This document shows, piece by piece, positions 24,488 through 53,465 of a DNA stretch of 64,000 nt. The position numbers and the translations under genes are program-made. The DNA comes from Jaapia argillacea MUCL 33604 (taxonomy: Eukaryota > Basidiomycota > Agaricomycetes > Jaapiales > Jaapiaceae): contig KL197711.1 of the NCBI GenBank assembly GCA_000697665.1, forward strand, positions 1,901,689 to 1,965,688. Direction: 5' to 3'. The notes below the pieces were generated by a model that saw only the letters and a list, made by a program, of their open reading frames with translations, made no database searches and was not told the origin of the DNA. Numbering within the stretch: position 1 is the first letter of the stretch; the number at the start of each line of letters is the position of its first letter.

Positions 24488-24934
24488 CTACAACTCCACG
24501 ACCACACATCCAATGGATATAAGAGTTCCTGCGAGATCGAGTAAGCAAATACACAAAGCGACAAGACTAATCCGAAAAGAAAGTCGTATCGCATACCGTA
24601 GGAGTTATCCTCACAGCACACAGGCTGAGCATTGCTGAAAAAATACGCGATGTCAGCATGACGCAGCAGAAACGGACGACAAAAAAACTCACCAGCTGGA
24701 ACCGCTACCAACATCGACGGCGGTGATGGGGGAGCAGTTGACACCGACGAGGCCATTAACATTCTGCGTGTCAATTCCGACGTATTTACAAAGGGCGGCA
24801 GTGGAGGGGTCGTCGGCCTTTTGGACGCTATTGCAGCATTGCATGGGACCAGTGTTGCACTGCGCGAACGCAGGAGTGACGGCCACAAGGACGGAGAGAG
24901 TAGCAGTAGCGACGACGGTGATCTTGGAGAACAT
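24488..24934 (-). CDS. Class I hydrophobin (copy 12, diverged first lineage)
   Basis: Minus-strand exons are 24934-24693, 24634-24597 and 24528-24488 (106 residues). MFSKITVVATATLSVLVAVT leads into CNTGPMQCCNSVQKADDPST. Exon 2 gives NAQPVCCEDNSYG, with Asn right after Cys5, and exon 3 [12 protein letters not shown]. Exon lengths 38 and 41 match copies 1-9. TATAAAA is at 25049-25055. The gene is separated from the main array by 7 kb. A long antisense reading frame covering it (24277-25032) is a shadow. Confidence 0.94.
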
Positions 24935-26028: not shown

Positions 26029-26540
26029 TCAAGATGTGGCCAATGGCTCAAATGGCTCAACGGGCTCAATGGGGATGCAGCCAGTTGCAATCTCAGTTTC
26101 TGCCAAACAGGGTTCAGAACGATGCCGGAGATACGTAGCTCAAAGAAGGGGAAGAAAATATAAATGCCCACCAGCATAGTAGCGTCTGCAGCATACAGGG
26201 CGATAAATGCTAGAAAATGGATATCTCCAATCAGTGAAAAAGCCAGCGCAAAAATCACAGCTGGAACGTACCAAATTTCAGTTGAAGTCAGTAGGGGACA
26301 AGCAATGCCCACGCTGGCGGTGGGGTCATCAATGGTGACCTCGGACACTTCGGATGTGGATAGAAGGGAGACTGGTCCGATGGTACGGCAACAGTTGACG
26401 TAGTATGGACATACGATGGGGGAAATGGGTGTTGGGATGGGGTCAATGATGACGGCGGGGATGACAGCCGACGTCTGGGCAGAGATGAGGGCTGGGAGAA
26501 GTGCTAAAGCTGCGAGGGAGCGGACGTAGACGGAGAACAT
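26029..26540 (-). CDS. Divergent hydrophobin-like secreted protein (copy 13)
   Basis: Three exons on the minus strand (26540-26272, 26209-26172, 26099-26029) give 125 residues. Signal peptide MFSVYVRSLAALALLPALIS, then a Pro/Ile-rich linker. The eight cysteines are CPYYVNCC, IACP, C5 split by the intron, RPVCC, and TGCIPIEP. Intron 1 is phase 2 inside the Cys5 codon and intron 2 is phase 1, as in every ordinary hydrophobin here. Differences are 5 rather than 6 residues between Cys1 and Cys2, arginines in place of TDN after Cys7, and an extended acidic C-terminus with repeated EP. A TATAAAA lies at 26591-26597. The Cys pattern and shared intron phases make a hydrophobin origin likely; surface activity is untested. 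Confidence 0.85.
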
Positions 26541-27123
26541 GGTGGGTTGAAGGCGCACTGGGTCTGATGAACCGTAGTACAGTACGAGGATTTTATACTT
26601 CAGCTTATCCTGTCGAGAAACACCTGAAGAAGGGCCGTTTGATGCTGCCCTGAACGTCAGTGTCCTGTACCTGATGGCTTAATACAACGGCGGTGGTTCG
26701 GAAGATCCGCAGGGCAGGATGGGGAATGGAGTAGGGTTGCATACGATCACAAGAGGGGATGGTGGCGTTGGCAACTCGCGAGAGTTATCCGGGATTTCAG
26801 CGCCAGGAGGACTGAATGTCAATTACGATAGGAGGGGGCGAGGCATCAATTCAGCTTCAGAGACAAAGCGTAGGTCACTAGCCTGTAACGAAAGAGCAGG
26901 CACCGAGGGAGTCGTCGAGTCGGAGAATTACGAGGCGGTAAAGGTGACGAGTTATTCACATCAGAAGCAAGAGTGTTGACGCATACGGCGGAACTCAGCT
27001 CAGAGAACGGAAAATTCGACAACATGGTGATAAATAGTATTCAAGTGCTTGGTTTTTGTCATTTCTGGAACATGGGGACAGATGATTTCCGAGTATACTT
27101 CAGACTCCCCATACCGGTCAAAT
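26541..27123. other. Spacer between hydrophobin-like copies 13 and 14
   Basis: Repeated at about 28,800-29,362 in the second tandem unit; for example, the segment with ttaatacaacggcggtggtt near 26,680 recurs near 28,920. Conservation may only reflect recent duplication. No gene seen. Confidence 0.55.
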
Positions 27124-27598
27124 TCACCATGGGCCAAGGGGATCGATGGGGACGCAATCGATGGCGGTGGTCGTGGTCGCAGCCACAGGATCTGTAAATT
27201 TCGACATATATGTGAGCATATATGCACGGTGAAAGTGTCACGAAGCCAATCAGGTACCATAGATATATCTGCAGCACAGAGGATAATACAGGCTGGAGAA
27301 ATAGATAGCCATAAGTAACCCATGATCATGGTACAGAATGATCAATAACATACCAAGGAGTGATCGCAACACTTGCTGCCGTAATGGTTTCACAGAACAA
27401 GCCTGCAGTAGCTGTAGCGGCTACGGTGACCCCCAATTCGGTGGTGATGGCGGTGATATCAGCGGAAGAGGCCGTCTCAAGGATACGGCAGCATTGGACT
27501 GGCCATGCACAACTGATGGGTGGGAGCGGGTCGACGACGATTTGGGCGGCAGCAAGGATGGGGAGCGAGAAGATGAAGGTGATGATGGCAGAATACAT
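27124..27598 (-). CDS. Divergent hydrophobin-like secreted protein (copy 14)
   Basis: Minus-strand exons are 27598-27354, 27292-27258 and 27191-27124 (115 residues). MYSAIITFIFSLPILAAA is the signal peptide, followed by QIVVDPLPPISCAWPVQCC. Cys4 is in LFCETI, Cys5 is split by intron 1 (TG/GTATGT), exon 2 encodes LYYPLCCRYIY, and exon 3 carries TTTTAIDC and ends VPIDPLGPW. Spacings are 5, 31, 12, 5 and 16 residues, close to class I except for the last. Taken alone, exon 1 looks like an unknown four-cysteine protein; the family appears only after joining exons. Near-identical to copy 15. Confidence 0.87.
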
Positions 27599-28716
27599 GC
27601 TTTGCGGTAGCTAGGATGCTTGGTGAAACCGTTGACAATCATGCTCTTTATATGCGTGCAGTGGTCAACAGCATTTCCATAATGCTCGCAGTGAAGCGGG
27701 GCGACCTAAGCCCGACTGCCCCTGATCACGACATGCCTTACAGGATTTGTGCACGTTCTGTGACAGTCGCGACCGTAAACCAAGTTCCAGAATATGAATC
27801 GTAGCACTCTTAGAGAGGTGCCTGAGCAGTCTTGAATTGCATGACAGCAAGTCGTCGACGTTGGTGAGAGCTCCAAGGCCACTGGTTGGAAATACATCGA
27901 CAAATGGTTCCCAAGCCATACGCTGGGACGACATTTGAGAATATTCCATGCCACCTTCAGGGTGATAGCACGCCGGCAGAGGCAGGTCAGGTGGTTCCAG
28001 TGATCCAGCAAACAAACGCAGGTGGTAAAATCCTAAATTGACTCCTGCCACATGAGCCGTTTGTCAGAGCAACAGATGGTGCGTTCAGGTGGGGCAGACA
28101 TTAAAAACGAAAATTTCGAACCACTAGCGAAGAGAGCGAACCAGCGGGTACTCAGGGCAATCATAACATGTAGCCGCGTGGCGCTAAGGTTTGTGGCGTC
28201 GTTGGCCACTAGGCTACTGGACTTTCGTTCGACATCAACAATTACATCCCAGCATTGAACTACATTTCCCCCGACCCACGGCTTCGGAAACCTTTGCTTT
28301 GCATTGAAATTGCGACGGCGCTGGCGAACTTAGCTTTTCCTGAATCTGTGCTAGCTGACAAGGATGGGGATTTCAGGCTCGTTATCACGCCCTCCGAGTC
28401 GTCGAAGTAGCCACTAGTTATCTATAGTTCCACCCCTCAAACCCACTGTGGTTCTCTCTTCTTCTCCCTGAAGATTCTCTGGACTCTTCTGCTCTTCTCT
28501 GTTACATTCAATCCTGTCGAATTGCTCGACGTCCTAGGTGTTCTTCAAGAGACGCCGCGCCACTAGTGTGTCTTGGTGCCTTCTCTCCAACAGGTTTCGA
28601 CGAGATCTTTCTCTTCTCTCGCAGCGGTAAACTGCGCATCGTGGTCGAGCTTTCCTATAGATCTCTGGCAGTAAGGCGACTCCTCTACATCCTCAACCTT
28701 TCAACACATTCTCAAC
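27599..28716. other. Upstream region of copy 14, duplicated
   Basis: TATAAA at 27647-27652 serves copy 14. The rest aligns with 29,838-31,147. No intact gene; the right part is the 5' flank of a truncated gene copy (next entry). Confidence 0.5.
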
Positions 28717-28752
28717 ATGACTTCCGTCCTTCCACCAACTACCCTTCCCTGA
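28717..28752 (+). pseudogene. Truncated 5' end of the 31148 gene
   Basis: Eleven codons (MTSVLPPTTLP) matching the first residues of the intact gene at 31148, then a stop created by the duplication junction. About 300 bases of the upstream flank also match. Too short to make a folded product. Confidence 0.8.
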
Positions 28753-28796
28753 AGAAGTGCTAAAGCTATGAGGGCGCGGACCTAAACGAGGAGCAT
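28753..28796 (-). pseudogene. Truncated 5' end of hydrophobin-like copy 13
   Basis: On the minus strand an ATG at 28796 opens a fragment matching the signal peptide of copy 13 (VRSLAALAL became VRALIALAL). It already carries an in-frame stop and is cut off at the duplication junction. Its promoter region also matches that of copy 13. Confidence 0.8.
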
Positions 28797-29362
28797 GTTG
28801 GGTTGAAGACACACTAGGTCTAATGAGCCGAGGTGTGAGGTTTTATAGCCCTTGGATAAACACCTGAAGAAGGGCTGTTTGATGCTGCCCTGATCGTCAG
28901 TGTCCCGTAACTGATGGCTTAATACAACGGCGGTGGTTCGGAAAATTCGCAGGGCAAGACAAGGAACGGAATACGGTTACATACAATCAGAAGAGTAGAC
29001 GTCGGTACTGGCACCTCGCGAGAGTTATCCGGGATTTCAGCGTCAGGACTGAATATCAATTACGATAGGAGAATGCAAGGCGCCAATTTAGCATCAGAGA
29101 TAAAGCGCAGGTCACTCGGTTGTAACGAAAGAGCAGGCACCGAGGGAATCGTCGGGTCGGAGAATTACGAGGTGATAAAAGATACGAGTGTTTCACATCC
29201 GAAGCAACAGTGTTGACGCAGACGGTAGAACTCAGCTCAGAGAACGGAAAAGTCGACAATCATGGTGACAGATAGTATTCAAGCGCTTTGTCTTTGTCAT
29301 TCACGAAACGTAGCGACAGCTGATTTTCGAGTATACTTCAGATGCCCCGTACCCAGTCAAAT

Positions 29363-29837
29363 TCACCATGGGCCAAGAGGATCGACGGGGACGCAATCGA
29401 TGGCGGTGGTTGTGGTCGCATCCACAGGACCTGTAAATTTCGATATATATGTGAGCATATACACACGGTGAAAGCGTCACGAAGCCAATGAGGTACCATA
29501 GATATATCTGCAGCACAGAGGATAATACAGGCTGGAGAAATAGATCGTCATAAGTACCCCATGATCATGGTACAGAATGATCAATGACATACCAAGGAGC
29601 GAACGCAACACTTGCTGCCGTAATGGGTTCGCAGATCAAGCCTGCAGTGGCCGTAGCGGCTACGGTGACCCCCAATTCGGTGGTAATGGCGGTGATATCA
29701 GCGGCAGAGGCCGTCTCAAGGGTGCGGCAGCATTGGACTGGCCATGGGCAATTGATGGGTGGGAGCGGGTCGACGACGATTTGGGCGGCAGCAAGGATGG
29801 GGAGCGAGAAGACGAAGGCGATGATGGCAGAATACAT
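29363..29837 (-). CDS. Divergent hydrophobin-like secreted protein (copy 15)
   Basis: Minus-strand exons are 29837-29593, 29531-29497 and 29430-29363, the same lengths as copy 14 (245, 35, 68; 115 residues). Start chosen at MYSAIIAFVFSLPILAAA, right after the TATAAA at 29886-29891; longer in-frame openings upstream lie before that box. Cysteines are in NCPWPVQCC, LICEP, the split Cys5, PLCCRYIY and AIDCVPVD. Most changes from copy 14 are conservative and all eight cysteines and both introns are kept, as expected if the gene is still under selection. Confidence 0.87.
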
Positions 29838-31147
29838 GGTTGTGGTAGCTCTGATGCTTAGTGAAACCGTTGGCGATCCATGCTCTTTATATATGTGCAG
29901 CGGTCGACAGCATTTCCATAATGCTCGCAACGAAGCGGGGCGCCCTAAACCCGACTGCCCCTGATCACGACATGCATTACAAGATTTGTGCACGTTCTGT
30001 AACAGTTGCAACCGTAAAGCAAGTTCCAGAATATGAATGGTAGCCCTCTTAGAGAGGTGCCTGAGCGGTCTTGAATTGCATGACAGCAGGTCGTCGACGT
30101 TGGTGAGAGCTCCAAGGCCACCGGTTGGAAATACAGCGACAAATGATTCCCAAGCCATGCACTGCGACGACATTTGGGAACATTCCATGCCACCTTCAGG
30201 GTAATAGCACACCGGCAGAGGCAGCTCGGGTAGATCGAGTGATCCAGCAGACGAAGAGGGAGTCGTAAAATCCTAAGAATTTGACTCCTGCCACATGAGC
30301 AGTTTGTCGGAGCAACAAATGGTGCAGTTCATGTATGGTGAACGAACATTAATGTTGAACGACTGGAGAAAAGAGAACCGGTTATGGCAATCGTATAGAC
30401 ACGTGGCGAGCTTTGTGGCGTTGTTCGCCACCAGGCCACTTGACTTTCGTTGAATTCGTTCGACCTTGACCTTGTGTAGAACTAAGCATTGAGGCATCTT
30501 CCCGCACCCGGGGCTTTACAAACCATTCCATTGCATCGGAATGCGATAGTCTCGCTGCTGGCACAGCTTAGCCTAAATCTGGGGCTGGCCGACAAGGACG
30601 GGAATTCGGCTTTCAGGTTGGCGTTCAAGTTCGTTATCTCGCCTTCGTCCAGGTAACCAGTTATCTATAGTCCCACTCTCAAGCCCACTGTGGTTCTCTC
30701 TTCCTTCTCTCTGAAGATTCTCTGGACTGTTCTAACCTTCCTTGTTACATTCATTCGTGTCGAATGGCTCAACGTCCTAGGTGTTCTTCAAGAGACGCCG
30801 CTCCGCTCGTTTGTCTCGGGACCTTCTCCCCAGCATCTTCTAACACATCGAAGCTTGTGGCACTCTGGGTCACTTCGCCAAATCGTCCAGTCTCCTGGAT
30901 TACTCTGTCTTCATCGTTGCCAGAACGGGTAAGCGTCGATCCGAGACTACTGGGATGGAGGGCATTCTCGCAGAAAGTAGAGGCCCCACTCTTTGATTCT
31001 CTGGTCCAGATGCTTGGTTGGTTTCGACGAGAATCTTTCCCTTTTCGCGCAACGGTGAACTGCGCATCCTCGTCGAGCTTTCCTATAAGTCTCGGGCGAC
31101 AAGGCACTCTTCAACATCATTCCTCAACCTTTCAACACATTCTCAAC
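29838..31147. other. Upstream region shared by copy 15 and the 31148 gene
   Basis: Divergent promoter region repeated from 27,599-28,716. A long plus-strand opening (30764 onward) runs in frame into the 31148 gene but is not supported by unit 1, where the matching region differs in length. Confidence 0.45.
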
Positions 31148-31772
31148 ATGACTTCCGTTCTTCCACCAACTACACTTACTTCCTGGACCGAATCCCAAAT
31201 CACTGCTATTCTCCAAGCCACCACCCCTATCGCGTTCGACGAAGCCTTGGAAAACTTCCTCGCTCCAGATGCAGAGATTACCGTGAACGGTAAACCTCTG
31301 TCCAAGGAGCAATACAAGGCATTGTTGCAGAAGGATAAGCTCCAAGAGTCTAGCGCGACTGTTGACTTTTCGGGAGCCGTCGAGGTCCCTACCGATGGCG
31401 AGAAGGTGTGTCGACTCCTGCATTCCAAGCTTCATCGTTTGACGGGTTGAGTGCAATCAGGCTGGTACGGTCGGGGTTTTCTTCAAGTCCACCATATTTA
31501 AACTTTTACGCGTTGGAGGCGCCGAGGAATCGAGCACCCTCACCTCCTCTCTCAACGTAGAGTGAGTTGCATCTCTTCAATCGTTGAAGGACATATCGAT
31601 TGACATCCTGAGTTTTTCAAGAATCTCCCAATTCACGCCCCACTTCATTACTGGTGGCGGCCCCGGTCCTGTTGTCTTTCCAGAGAGGAGGGTTTCGAAG
31701 CTTGATCAGGTCATGGTGGAGGTTGCCAACCCTATCATTCTTCCAGGAGATAATAAGCCTACCCCTTTGTGA
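31148..31772 (+). CDS. Small protein of unknown function
   Basis: Three exons (31148-31405, 31461-31561, 31622-31772) give 169 residues with no signal peptide. The N-terminal half (FDEALENFLAPDAEITVNGK, then LSKEQYKALLQ) has the feel of an NTF2/SnoaL-like fold, but no signature was confirmed. The middle exon is rich in Val, Phe and Thr, and the last ends PGDNKPTPL. Exon phases are consistent (0 then 2). The start is fixed by the truncated duplicate at 28717, which keeps the same ATG and first ten codons. Function not recognised. Confidence 0.7.
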
Positions 31773-35479: not shown

Positions 35480-37850
35480 TCCCCTGAGCTTTGAAATACA
35501 TGGTGCAAAATTTACAGCAGGACCGAAGCTATCAAGGACAAAACGGTCACTACAAGTACAACCGACCAAGCTGGAACTCGGATTTATGGTAACGTAGCCC
35601 TGGTGCTCCACAGAACTCTCAAACACTTTTCCTGGCAAACGGGAGGACCTTTTCCTTGCTACCATTGTCGCGATTTCCCCCATCACCCCAGAAATCCACC
35701 GAAGTCCATGTGAGAACTAGTTTGCATGTCTCCCCAAAGGCTACTCGAGACTCGATCAATGTAAGTTTAGTAGGGTCCTCCTTGACAGTGGCAATGATAG
35801 GTTGACTCTGAGGTCTCATTACTGTGTGATCTTCACCACCACGAGGGACGCCTGTGTAGCCCTCCAGGGGCTCGAGCATATAGGATGGAGGCGAGACCAG
35901 GTGACTGATTACAATCACTAGACGTGAGTATGGAACTCCTGGATGGTCCCGAGCAGCGATCATCTTGAGTTCGGGAATACCGCGGTAAGCATCTTGGAGG
36001 GTTTGGCTTTTGATGAATTCGAAATCTCGCTTCCCGAGTTCCTCAGTTGCACCTTCTACACGAGATACGTCAGCCTAGATAGTTCGCGAAATCCGAGAGT
36101 CTATCAAGAAGAATCTCACCGGCTGCATCGCGTTGCGCGACCTTGCACTTTACCTTGTGGTCGCCCTCCTTCCAATCCTGGACCTGACATTCCTTTGAAC
36201 AATGAAATGCAACTGAACAGGAACCACACTTTCTGAACTGAGCCTTTTCGCCGATTTTACGACACTATCAAATGATTTCAGACGAATTAAATAAAGAATC
36301 TCAGGAGATAGAATATTACGAACCTTTACATTGTCGCAGCAACGATTGTCAGAAAGCATAGAAAGGTCGCGATAACGTTCCACAACGTCTATTTCAAGGT
36401 TTATCCAATCATCCTTGATCACGCTTGCCTCGGCTTTTCGTCTGCCTTGCGAGCCGTGCAGTTTGGCGAGGGCGCTGTGAAGGCATCGCAGAACAGGACG
36501 ATATAAGACGTAACGATGCAAGGTATCGCGAAGGATGGCGACCTCGAGATTCTCAGAAGTCTCTGTGCCCATTGCTGGGCTGCAATTGGCCAAAGCGGGG
36601 AGGAGGCCAGCGTTAATGGATTGAATGACGAAGGCGTAGCCCTCCTTCGCGTTCAGATTCTCTCCGAGGTAGGATAAGCAGGTTCGCATCGCCCCGACAG
36701 TGGTCCGGTCAGGATTCCTGGATATAGTGGATGAGATAGAGGCGAGCGCTTTTGTCATCCACCAAATCGAATTGCCGTCTAAGAATGCGTCCCGTAGAGC
36801 AATCTTCATAGGGGGACCGAGACATTGAACGGCATGGACGGCGATTTTGAGGTCGCTGATGTCGGGTTGAGTGCCTTCTAGGACCTTGCGAAGGCGGGAG
36901 AGAGCATGTTGAGCAACTTTATGAACGTCCCCACCAGCTGCGTCCAAGACTCTATCGACGCCTCTCTGGCAGTCAAACTGGATGATATTGCACAACCCTC
37001 CGGTGGCCGCTAAAGGATTGGTATCTCCAATAGCTTGTAGGGATCCCTCGAAAAGCCATATCTTGGTAGCCAACTCGATGGAGCCGGGTGTGTCCGTCAT
37101 GGCTGTACGGAGGCGTTCGGTCCGCACCAATCCGCACCAAGCACCAGTGATTATCTGCATGCATGGATACCTCATCTCCTCCCCGGTAGGGTGCAACATC
37201 CGAGTTACGAAGAAGAACTTGCTCCACTTGAAGATACCTGGCCACGCCTTTAAGGCGGAGTCGACATCTTCGATTTGACTCTGAAAATCGCATAGACGGG
37301 ATATGGCGGCGAGAGAAAGGTAGGCTGATTCAATGAGGCTCTCTGAGGCGGGAGACCTTGGGGAGGGGACTTTCCCTTCGTCCAAATGATGGAAGAAGAC
37401 GTTAAATAATCCCATCGACCGCAAGACGGGGAAGGAGGGCCAGTGGATGGCGAGAGTTGTGAGGTCCGGGAGGGAACCCCGACGAGCTCCATCGAGACAC
37501 TGTCGTGTATGATTAGAAAAGAATAGCACGGACGTTTGTAAACATTGTTGGTGCTCACCTTTCGTGGATTTCGTTGAAGTAACGAAACAATATTTGGCAG
37601 AATGGATGCCGTGACGGGAGTTCAATGGATCAACTGGGTGATCATATAACAGTGCACCATCACCTGCAATATATACGCTGCGCTGAAGTCAGCCATTGGA
37701 CACGGGTTCCTTGATTAAGTTCGAGTTCAGACCAGTAAACTAGTACAAGTGGGTCGGAACCGACGTGGGAGACCTGGTCCGAGCGTTCAATAAGCCAGTT
37801 TGATCTGAGTCCTCGCCCCACCCCGGTAAGATACCACACCGTCTTCATCC
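35480..37850. repeat. Segmental duplication, unit A (MYND gene)
   Basis: The MYND gene and both flanks match 40,210-42,550. The 3' flank shares the ccgaagctatcaag region and the 5' flank shares gggagacctggtccgagcgt. An F-box gene sits between the two units. Confidence 0.75.
35619..37612 (-). CDS. MYND zinc-finger protein (paralog 1, start codon ACG)
   Basis: Four minus-strand exons inferred from paralog 2: 37612-37559, 37499-36324, 36264-36120 and 36055-35619. An alpha-helical body of about 400 residues precedes a MYND finger whose first cysteines (CCDNVKC) lie before intron 2 and the rest (FRKCGSCSVAFHCSKECQ, then H and C) after it. The conserved start ATG of paralog 2 is ACG here, with a stop just upstream and no other ATG before 37415 (in RSMGLFN). 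So translation starts at ACG, starts internally, or fails. The exon bodies and splice sites are intact. Function unknown; MYND fingers usually bind proline-rich partners. Confidence 0.72.
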
Positions 37851-40395: not shown

Positions 40396-42550
40396 CTAGC
40401 TAGCATTGTCACGATTTCCCCCATCACCCAAGAGGTTCCCTGAGGCCACGCAGAAAACGAATTTGCATATCTCCCCGAAGACCACTCGAGACTCGATCAA
40501 TGTATGTTTAGTAGGGTCCTCCTTGACGGTGTCAATGAGAGGTTTGCTCTGAGCTCTCACCACCATGTGATCTTCACAACCACGAGGGACGCCTGTGTAA
40601 CCCTCCAGGGGCTCGAGCGTATAGGATGGAGGCGAGACCAGGTAGCTGATTACAATCACTAGACGTGAGTATGGAACTCCTGGATGGTCACGAGCGGCGA
40701 TCATCTTGAGGGCGGGAATGCCACGATGAGCTTCTCGGAGGGTTTGGTTTTTGATGAATTGGAAATCTCGCTTCCCGAGTTTCTCAGTTGCACCTTCTGC
40801 TCGAGATGCGTCAGCCCGGGTAGTCCGTCTATCGGGAAGAGTCTCACCAGGTGCGAGGCGTTGCGCGGCCTTGCACTTTGCCTTATGGTTGCCCTCCCTC
40901 CAATCCTGGACCTGACATTCTTTTGCACAGTAAAACGCAACTGAACAGGAACCACACTTTCGGAATTGAGCCTTGTCGCCCATTTTACGGCACTGTCAAA
41001 TCAATTCGTGCGAATCAGGTAGGGGATCTTAGCAGAGAATATAACGAACCTTTTTATTGTCGCAGCAAAAATTTTCAGAAGGGGTAGAAAGGTCGTGATA
41101 ACGCTCCTCGACTACCTTTTCAAGGTTTGTCCAATCGTCCTTGATCACGCTTGCCTGGACTTTCTGTCTGCTCTGCGAACCCTTCAGTTTGCCCAGGGCG
41201 CTGTGAAGGCACCACAAAACGGGGCGATATAAGACGTAGCGAGGCAAGGTATTGCGAATGATGGCGATCTCGAGATTCTTAGAAGTCTCTATGCCCATCG
41301 CTGGGCTGCAGTTAGCCAAGGCGGGGATGAGGCCAGCATTGATGGATTGGATGACGAAGGGATAGCCCTCCTTCGCGTTGAGATGGTCTCCGAGGTAGCC
41401 TAAGCATACCTGCATCGCAGCGGCAGTGGTCGGGTCGGGATTCCGGGAGATTGTAGATGAAATGGAGACGAGCGCTGTTGTCATCCACAAAATCGAGTTG
41501 CCGGCTAAGAATGCGTCCCGCATGGCGGTCTTTATGGGGGGACCGAGACATTCAACGGCGTGGACGACGATTCTGAGATGGCTAATGTCGGGCTGGTTGC
41601 CTTCTAGAACCATACGAAGACGGGAGAGAGCCTGTTGAGCAACCTTGTGAACGTCTCCACCTGCTGCGTTCAAAACTCTATCGACGCCTCTCTTGCAGTC
41701 AAGATGGATGATATTGTACAACCCACCGGTTGCTGCTACTGGGTGACCATCTCCAATTGCTTGTGGCGTTCCCTCGAAGAGCCATATCCTGGTGGCCAAC
41801 TCGACGGAGCCGGGTGTGTCTGTAATGGCTCTACGGAGGAGTTCGATCTGCTCCAATGCGCACCAAGCGTTGGTGATTATTTGCAAGCATGGATACCTCG
41901 TCTCCTCATGGGTAGGGTACAATATCCGAGTCACGAAGAAGAACTTGCTCCACTTGAATATACCTGGCCACGCCTTCAATGCCTTCAAGGCGAAGTCGAC
42001 ATCTTCAATCATTTGACCATGAAAGTCGATTAGACGAGACAGGGCGAAGAGAGAAAGATAGGCGGATTCCGTGAGGCTCTCTGAGGCAGGAGACCTTGGT
42101 GAGGGGACTTTCCCCTCGTCCAAATGATGGAAGAAGACTGTAAACAATCCCATCGACCGCAGGATGGGGAAAAAGGGCCAGTGGATGGCCAGAGTTGTGA
42201 GGTCTCGGAGGGAACCCCGACGAGCTCCATCGAGACACTGTCAGGTATGATTAGAAAATAATAACATTTGTAAAGGTTGCTAGTGCTCACTCGCTGCGGA
42301 TTTCGTTGAAGTAACGAAACAATATGTGGCGGGATGTGTGCCATGACAAGGGGTCAAATGGATCAACTGGCTGATGATGCACCATCCCCTGCAATATACG
42401 CAGGCTGAAATTCAGCCATAGTTCAAGACCGTAATTATCATGGGCCGAACGGAATCACGGATGAATGAGAAGCACCCAACGCCACGTGGTCCGTGGAACT
42501 GACGTGGGAGACCTGGTCCGAGCGTTCATTCAGCCCTTTTGATCTGACCC
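40210..42550. repeat. Segmental duplication, unit B (MYND gene)
   Basis: Partner of 35,480-37,850 in the same orientation, covering the whole MYND gene with about 200 bases of flank on each side. Confidence 0.75.
40396..42344 (-). CDS. MYND zinc-finger protein (paralog 2)
   Basis: Minus-strand exons are 42344-42291, 42237-41050, 40992-40848 and 40796-40396 (595 residues). The start MAHIPPHIVSLLQRNPQR is preceded by no competing ATG. The body reads FFHHLDEGKVPSPRSPASES and WPGIFKWSKFFFVTRILYP. The MYND finger (CDNKKC, then FRKCGSCSVAFYCAKECQ, DWREGNHKAKC) is split by intron 2. Intron 3 is 51 bases, a multiple of three without a stop, so splicing and retention both keep the frame; in paralog 1 the same intron is 64 bases and must be removed. 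The C-terminal domain (HPGVPYSRLVIVIS) has no known name. Confidence 0.85.
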
Positions 42551-51346: not shown

Positions 51347-53465
51347 ATGCCTCCGCCGCCTGGAATAAACATGGCAGCATACCAGAAGGTCATGCTTAGG
51401 TTGAAGCGGAACCCGAAGGAGGTATGTTTTCTTGCGTGCTCGCTGTGATCTTCTGAAACTCACCCCAGTCATAATACAGTTTCTTGCATGTGCACAGCGA
51501 GGAAATTTGCCCGAGGCCATTGCTTTGGGAAACTTCTGGCAAGATTTCCCAGAATTGTTGTCACTCGGTCTTCTCGACGTGTTTTTCCATCACACGGATG
51601 ATAGCAAGGCTCCGATTGACTCCAGCGCAAACCATATGGACAAGCCTGTCCAACTGGCCTTCGCATCCTTTGTTGGTCTCGCGAAAGTTGGAGAATTCTG
51701 GGATGCGGGTTTACTCGATGAGAGCAAAGTACTGAAAGCTTGGCCTGGGATCTTCACTTGGAGCGAATATTTCTTCGTTGCTCGAGTTCTTCCCGTTGGT
51801 GTTCCGGACGGGCTCCGTCAAGGGACCATGGACTCCATTGCCTCTACCTGGTATGGATTCCTGAAGAATGCCAACGTCCGGCAGGCCATGGCAGACACTC
51901 CCGGCGCAATCGAGCTAGCTACGCATCTATGGATTAGAGAAGGTACCGGATCTGTGCCTTCCTTCGCCACTATCCCCGTTACGTCATCCATGTTTGATAG
52001 CTTGCTCAAGTTCGCCGACGATTCCGCCCTCGACAGAGTTGTGGAAGCAATGGATGGCAAAGTCGACAACATTGCGCAGATCGCTTTGAATCGTTTACGT
52101 GCCGCTATCAAAGGTCCAAATCTCGACGCTATGGAGATGCTGATCTTCACCGACACCATCAATACTTTGTGTCGCGAGCCAAGAAATGGCCTTCGTGACG
52201 CATTCCTTCGTTTCAATGTGATTCATTGGGTTACCAAAGGACTAGCAGCCATCTCGACCAACATCGTCTCGGCTCCAGATCCCAAGAGCCTCGCTGCAAT
52301 GTTATCCTGCCTTGGTTTCCTCTCCAATTACATCGAGTCAACTGACGGGTTTACATGGGTACTGCAATCCATCAACGCAGGCCTCATCTCTGCCTACGCC
52401 GACTGCAGTCCTGTTTTCAACAAGGTGGACCTTTCGGATAGGGAAGATATCATCATACCCATATTCGACGATATCATCCCTCGTTACATGGTTTTTCGCT
52501 CAGTGGTTTGCGCCGTTGATGGTGCGATATTTTCCGTCGATCAGTCAAACCGCAGAGGAAAGTTGGAAAGGAGCCCAGCCGGTGATGCGTGGAGAAAGTT
52601 CTACGCACTTACCCTTGAGCGCCGAGCTTTTCTTGCTCAGCACCATTTGCTGAAAGACAAGGCCATTATTTGTGATAATACCAAGGTTTGTTCTCGCGCA
52701 ATGATCTTCGTCCTTCCACTGATGCAGTGCCGCTGACACCGAAACCGGTTGCTTTCTAGTGCCAGAGAATGGACGACAAGAATGCGTTTCGAAAGTGTTC
52801 AGCCTGCTTGTGCACGTTCTACTGCTCTAAGGAATGTCAAGCGATAGCTTGGAAGCAAGGAGACCATAAGTCGATGTGTAAACTGAAGCAACAAGAGCGT
52901 ATAGGTCTGCACCTGTCATTCAACCTTACTTCCAATGTATCTCACGACGCCTTCACTAGAGCACAAAGCGGAGTCAATCACCAAGCAAGATATTCGTTTC
53001 CTCCATCATCTTACGTTACAAGATGGTGCACGTAACCTCCCTCATCTTCGAGCTCTGGCGGCTCGCGAGTTCCCGGGCATCCCCTACCACTCCCTTGTCA
53101 TCTCTATCAACTACAATTTCCTTCCTCCGACATTTTCTCTAAAGCCCATCGATACGTACACGGGACAAAATATCCGTGGCACGACAAATGGCGAAGATCG
53201 GCATCACGCTCTCGTCCAGAAAACCAAGGAGCATCCGGGCAAGTATGTGCTTGTTGAGGCGATGATTTCGTTTGGGGAAGGCGATCAGCTTATATTGACC
53301 TTGGCGAAAGGTGATTATTGGGATTCGAAGGATGGCTATGATGAGTTGGTTGCGGATGAGATGGATCAGATGATGGCGAGGATCATAGTCGATAACATCA
53401 TGAAGAACTTGGGAAGTCAAGTCAAGCATTCGGAATCCCGGCGCTCGAGAAGACGGAATCCATAA
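51347..53465 (+). CDS. MYND zinc-finger protein (paralog 3)
   Basis: Exons are 51347-51421, 51480-52685, 52760-52904 and 52960-53465 (643 residues). Exon phases are the same as in paralogs 1 and 2. FFHHTDDSKAPIDSSANHMD and WPGIFTWSEYFFVARVLPVG align with their bodies at clearly lower identity, so this copy is older. The finger reads CDNTKC before intron 2, then FRKCSACLCTFYCSKECQAI and KQGDHKSMC after it. The C-terminal domain (FPGIPYHSLVISINYNFLPP) is kept and extended by an acidic-basic tail. Start MPPPPGINMAAYQKVMLRLK; an inner ATG is also possible. Confidence 0.87.

Follow-up and report, generated by a model that had tools for sequence, protein, structure and literature searches.

Three diverged candidate class I hydrophobin genes within a hydrophobin cluster of Jaapia argillacea

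Described class I hydrophobins

Hydrophobins are water-repellent coat proteins secreted by filamentous fungi. In Pfam, they are represented by the family Hydrophobin (PF01185), which has a gathering cut-off of 23 bits. For class I, PMC3879219 quotes the consensus C-X5-7-CC-X19-39-C-X8-23-C-X5-CC-X6-18-C-X2-13, and the basidiomycete values tabulated in that paper are 6 for Cys1–Cys2 and 12 to 13 for Cys4–Cys5. An alternative class I pattern, C-X6-7-CC-X33-41-C-X19-25-C-X5-CC-X12-17-C, is given in PMC10820438 along with a tail range of 2 to 14. The hydrophobin cDNAs of Tricholoma vaccinum feature two introns at conserved positions, with one splice site within Cys5, and X6 separates Cys1 from Cys2 in nine of nine proteins (PMC5147985).

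SC16 of Schizophyllum commune (PDB entry 2nbh) belongs to class IB, and SLH4 corresponds to entry 5w0y (PMC12375992, PMC5385502). The disulfides of SC16 are 1–6, 2–5, 3–4, and 7–8, as judged by the residue numbers in PMC5385502. The same paper defines class IB by resemblance in loop length and by conservation that extends to residues other than cysteine, and it describes very little conservation in the mixed region. In a 2025 AlphaFold study, both the cores and the loops of hydrophobins are diverse around a shared disulfide-bonded sheet; the basidiomycete class I proteins fall into three structural clades and a mixed one, and the clades defined by sequence are far more numerous (PMC12375992). 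Given the diversity reported in these two papers, diverged members such as those described below are to be expected.

Gene models and family assignment

The window is a stretch of 64,000 nucleotides of Jaapia argillacea MUCL 33604 (contig KL197711.1, positions 1,901,689 to 1,965,688). It contains 16 hydrophobin loci between 832 and 33078, as found by tblastn with the window's own hydrophobins. The loci span approximately 33 kb, lie on both strands, and are in many cases near-identical. They comprise 12 ordinary eight-cysteine genes, one ordinary nine-cysteine gene (24934, minus strand), and the genes A, B, and C (Table 1). The nine-cysteine gene (24488–24934, −) is otherwise an ordinary hydrophobin and carries its ninth cysteine between Cys3 and Cys4 (LCKYVG). 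Further along the window, the long ORFs at 36150–37625 (−), 41029–42153 (−), and 51432–52736 (+) appear by eye to be mutual paralogs; the first two have FFHHLDEGKVPSPRSPAS in common, and a Pfam search of the ORF at 36150–37625 (−) found nothing at E 0.001.

Table 1. Window coordinates of genes A, B, and C and of the segments of the tandem duplication
Feature	Position	Strand	Exons	Description
Gene A	26029–26540	−	26540–26272, 26209–26172, 26099–26029	125 aa; Cys spacing 5-29-8-5-12, tail 15
Gene B	27124–27598	−	27598–27354, 27292–27258, 27191–27124	115 aa; Cys spacing 5-31-12-5-16, tail 9
Gene C	29363–29837	−	29837–29593, 29531–29497, 29430–29363	115 aa; Cys spacing and tail as in B
First duplicate copy	26497–28592			Holds the 5′ end of A and gene B; 82.8% to 28753–30835 (alignment length 2142)
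Second duplicate copy	28753–30835			Holds gene C and a relic of the 5′ end of A near 28753–28797, with a stop codon in the relic
Relic of the 5′ region of predicted gene 31148 (+)	28593–28746			85.5% to 31020–31177; joined to the A relic, forming the junction

The initial annotation had read A, B, and C as genes with eight cysteines in hydrophobin order once spliced and with introns at the class I places and phases, and the gene models, all on the minus strand, bear this out. After splicing, each gene encodes eight cysteines in the order C-CC-C-C-CC-C. Intron 1 is in phase 2 and splits the Cys5 codon between TG and C; intron 2 is in phase 1 and follows Cys7. Both introns and all eight cysteines are in register with those of the 12 ordinary window hydrophobins, and the predicted splice sites occupy conserved places, one of them inside Cys5. 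The joins proposed earlier for B (27354/27292 and 27258/27191) are identical to those of the script model described below, and matching joins are predicted for C.

The architecture script demanded ATG, C-X4-9-CC-X18-45-C-X5-25, a GT donor directly after TG inside Cys5, and a second exon with C-X4-7-CC, after which intron 2 had to be in phase 1 and to be followed by a further cysteine and a stop codon. The script was composed after A, B, and C had been seen, and open frames are one of its conditions. Within the window, 15 loci fit this architecture, whereas the nine-cysteine gene does not. In 200 dinucleotide-preserving shuffles, neither full nor two-exon matches occurred, and the exon-1 part alone occurred twice in total. 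For several ordinary genes, the script offers more than one second intron, and the one that best fits the common pattern was picked, so that the Cys7–Cys8 lengths of these neighbors depend on intron choice. Intron 2 of A is best read as 26171–26100 (72 bases), which places 12 residues between Cys7 and Cys8. The acceptor at 26139 is in frame but would shorten the intron to 33 bases and add a ninth cysteine; 26100 was preferred.

Against PF01185, the spliced proteins reach 25.3 bits (A), 24.6 bits (B), and 27.1 bits (C), a margin of only 1.6 to 4.1 bits above the cut-off, and the other window hydrophobins scanned score 78.3 and 63.8 bits (two ordinary neighbors) and 82.6 bits (the nine-cysteine gene). 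As unspliced ORFs, all three fall below the cut-off (A no match, B 15.9 bits, C 18.8 bits). Pfam thus misses the genes only under a wrong gene model, and the earlier description of them as hidden from domain searches holds for the unspliced ORFs and not for the spliced proteins. A profile of A, B, and C searched against the PDB finds three hydrophobin sequences, at E values of 5.1e-7, 0.013, and 0.016, with no further match at an E value of 1 or less. With B alone, the same three are found at 1.8e-6, 0.0057, and 0.0057, accompanied by one unrelated chain at 1.4. SC16 and SLH4 are two of the three matches, and their CC-C-C-CC core is aligned.

A profile of the 13 other window hydrophobins scores A, B, and C at 14.9, 28.9, and 34.8 bits. 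When all cysteines and residues 1 to 20 were kept fixed, none of 700 shuffles per gene reached the real score, the best being 10.0, 21.6, and 14.1 bits, respectively. A profile–profile comparison of the three with eight of the 13 others gives an E value of 4.7e-8 and a probability of 95 over 75 columns. On this sequence evidence, the assignment of A, B, and C as hydrophobins is well supported, and in all likelihood they are real hydrophobin genes of an ordinary kind. In searches for relatives of C, 10 pattern matches in viral contigs and 51 in genome contigs were obtained and none was confirmed; since both are poor places for fungal genes, these nulls say nothing on rarity.

Differences from neighboring and described hydrophobins

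Compared with the class I family PF01185, A, B, and C share the eight cysteines in order, a score above the cut-off, and two introns in known places, and every Cys–Cys spacing in all three lies within the consensus quoted in PMC3879219. They differ by their low scores, by Arg after Cys3 and Cys7, and by the longer tail of A. The pattern given in PMC10820438 fits neither these three nor, equally, the 12 ordinary neighbors. One difference concerns Cys1–Cys2: the five residues claimed in the initial annotation are present in all three genes, and six are found in 12 of 12 eight-cysteine neighbors, as in the basidiomycete table of PMC3879219 and in T. vaccinum. The Cys4–Cys5 loop has eight residues in A, 13 in all 12 of these neighbors, and 12 to 13 in that table. 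For Cys7–Cys8, at least 16 residues had been claimed. This is true of B and C, at a value that lies within the published class I range of 6 to 18, and not of A with 12; the three genes therefore do not differ consistently here, and two neighbors have 14 and 15 residues under their chosen second-intron models.

Cys7 is followed by RRY in A and by RYI in B and C. TDN is indeed absent after Cys7 in all three, yet this is not special: it is also absent in three of the 12 eight-cysteine neighbors, one of which has IDN, and the nine-cysteine gene has EDN. Arg follows both CC pairs (Cys3 and Cys7) in A, B, and C, and the neighbors have different residues at these places. Between Cys5 and Cys8, there are three to four aromatic residues in the three genes versus zero to one in the 12 neighbors. 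The tails after Cys8 are IPIEPVEPFEPLATS in A, VPIDPLGPW in B, and VPVDPLGPW in C, and the exon 3 motif C[IV]P[IV][ED]P is common to A and B/C. The neighbors have tails of five to six residues, which B and C exceed by three to four. The long C terminus ascribed to the genes is a feature of A, whose 15 residues lie beyond the 2 to 13 quoted in PMC3879219, and not of B and C, whose nine residues lie inside that range. In the literature covered, no hydrophobin with such a tail is described; the search by name took in acidic C-terminal regions, for which the sole match concerns bacterial amyloids as judged by title and abstract, and divergent hydrophobins, for which there was none.

SC16 has six residues between Cys1 and Cys2 and 12 between Cys7 and Cys8 (PMC5385502), compared with five in A, B, and C and 16 in B and C, and SC16 and SLH4 have other residues directly behind Cys3 and Cys7. 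Set against the properties given for class IB, and with the neighbors, T. vaccinum, and SC16 as the only references, A, B, and C depart in having five residues rather than six between Cys1 and Cys2; with the window neighbors as the only reference, they also depart in the residues after Cys3 and Cys7. T. vaccinum Hyd7 is alike by description—a diverged protein with a longer N-terminal stretch beside typical members, in a separate cluster—but features X6, X12, and a five-residue tail (PMC5147985).

By homology, A, B, and C would be secreted with a signal peptide that ends near an Ala-Gln site, as judged by eye. A short stretch rich in proline and acidic residues follows, and then the eight-cysteine domain, whose cysteines would form the four hydrophobin disulfides in the SC16 pattern (1–6, 2–5, 3–4, 7–8) around a small β-barrel. 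The proteins would probably be surface-active and assemble at air–water or wall surfaces, in fruit bodies or on hyphae. The Arg residues that follow Cys3 and Cys7, the aromatic segment from Cys5 to Cys8 (CIY/CLYY...CCRxxY), and the Pro/acid tail may tune charge and assembly with function unchanged.

Duplication, splice signals, and relationship of the three genes

B and C are 89% identical, and the two genes probably arose by tandem duplication of a unit that would reach from the 5′ end of gene A to the start of predicted gene 31148, the first 91 codons of which have no Pfam match at E 0.001. The junction (28593–28800) consists of the relic 5′ ends of two genes, placed back to back. Between the duplicates, 21 of 348 exon positions (6.0%), nine of 127 intron positions (7.1%), and 281 of 1577 positions in the rest of the unit (17.8%) differ, with 75 gap columns, all in the rest of the unit, omitted. 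Exons and introns do not differ from each other in divergence (p 0.67), and each differs from the rest of the unit (p 3e-9 for exons, 0.0013 for introns). Because the introns are conserved like the exons, this fits gene conversion or transcript constraint as well as selection on the protein. For B versus C, dN is 0.053 and dS is 0.096, a ratio of about 0.55.

The intron-2 donor of B and C (27192–27257 and 29431–29496, −) is GTACCT and lacks G at +5. All 24 introns of the 12 eight-cysteine neighbors have this G, 21 of them without a competing donor and three with donors chosen among alternatives. No other GT with +5 G exists for intron 2 in the stretch of B, and the single one in C (29466) is preceded by an in-frame stop. 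Without splicing, the reading frame of both genes ends shortly after Cys7. Intron 2 of A, B, and C carries no branch-like motif, as is the case for three of 24 neighbor introns, and in B and C the sole motif of intron 1 is far off (−53). TATA-like boxes are located at −54 to −57 in A, B, and C and at −73 to −97 in seven of 12 neighbors; none was found in the remaining five.

In a tree of the 16 window proteins, A, B, and C split from the 13 others at 100/100, and upon addition of SC16 and SLH4, they split from 15 other rows at 100/99. Both trees come with program warnings on long branches and on the composition of A, and the tree with SC16 and SLH4 has no sure outgroup. Without A, B and C fall among ordinary rows with weak support (56/69); without B and C, A sits alone on a very long branch. 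The raw identity is 38% for A–B and 40% for A–C. A is 22 to 35% identical to the 13 other window hydrophobins; B shares 33 to 39% with nine of these and C 33 to 42% with 10, the remaining pairs being at 21 to 29%. By identity, A is no nearer to B and C than ordinary neighbors are. The subfamily that had been proposed is recovered as a tree branch, and the warnings and the lack of special nearness of A by identity speak against it. Common descent of the three genes is likely from their shared marks but not secure, and the proposal of a subfamily both hidden and undescribed is unproven and partly mistaken.

Alternative readings and meaning

It is highly probable that the three genes are divergent paralogs of the surrounding class I hydrophobins—surface-active secreted proteins by homology—and that B and C stem from a tandem duplication. 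Points against this reading are the narrow Pfam margin, the tail length of A, the intron-2 donor of B and C, the departures from the basidiomycete values for Cys1–Cys2 and, in A, for Cys4–Cys5, and the pattern of PMC10820438, which the ordinary neighbors do not fit either. That they are instead four-cysteine secreted proteins whose downstream cysteines appear by chance joining is extremely unlikely: exon 1 alone does hold four cysteines and the unspliced ORFs stay below the Pfam cut-off, but the full architecture is found in none of 200 shuffles, splicing lifts all three over the cut-off, and the neighbors have a matching exon structure. Decay or poor expression of B and C, and perhaps of A, with bad intron-2 splicing of B and C leading to truncated seven-cysteine products, is improbable. 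The GTACCT donor without +5 G, the unspliced stop soon after Cys7, and the missing or distant branch-like motifs point toward it, though three of 24 neighbor introns also have no such motif; the equal divergence of exons and introns in B and C and the dN/dS ratio also suggest weak constraint on the protein. Against decay stand the intact frames of the three copies, which the script had required, the presence of every one of the eight cysteines in each, and the retention of the exon 3 motif between A and B/C despite 38 to 40% overall identity. The lower divergence of B/C exons and introns relative to the rest of the unit, which fits selection or gene conversion, and the TATA-like boxes of all three genes likewise argue against it.

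It is unlikely that the three genes belong to a distinct, widely distributed, and undescribed branch of hydrophobins that has a function of its own and is recognizable by X5 after Cys1, two CCR motifs, and the Pro/acid tail, even though these marks and the TATA spacing are common to all three and the 100/99 split separates them from the other rows. The long-branch warnings and the tree without a sure outgroup weigh against it, as do the identity of B and C to ordinary genes, which is as high as that to A, their place among ordinary rows once A is removed, and the single window from which the three genes are known. A bolder version is speculative and rather improbable: A, B, and C would form a separate basidiomycete branch outside class IB, in which the Arg and aromatic residues between Cys5 and Cys8 and the Pro/acid tail would lead to a different assembly, such as soluble or non-rodlet films, and which would have been overlooked through mis-splicing and edge Pfam scores.

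Read as diverged paralogs, A, B, and C illustrate that edge-of-family hydrophobins can sit in an ordinary cluster and cross the Pfam cut-off only with both short introns correctly spliced. Since passing Pfam needs correct splicing, hydrophobin counts of fungal genomes may be low. If the separate branch were true and widespread, it would provide one more variant for studies of the loops that drive rodlet assembly.
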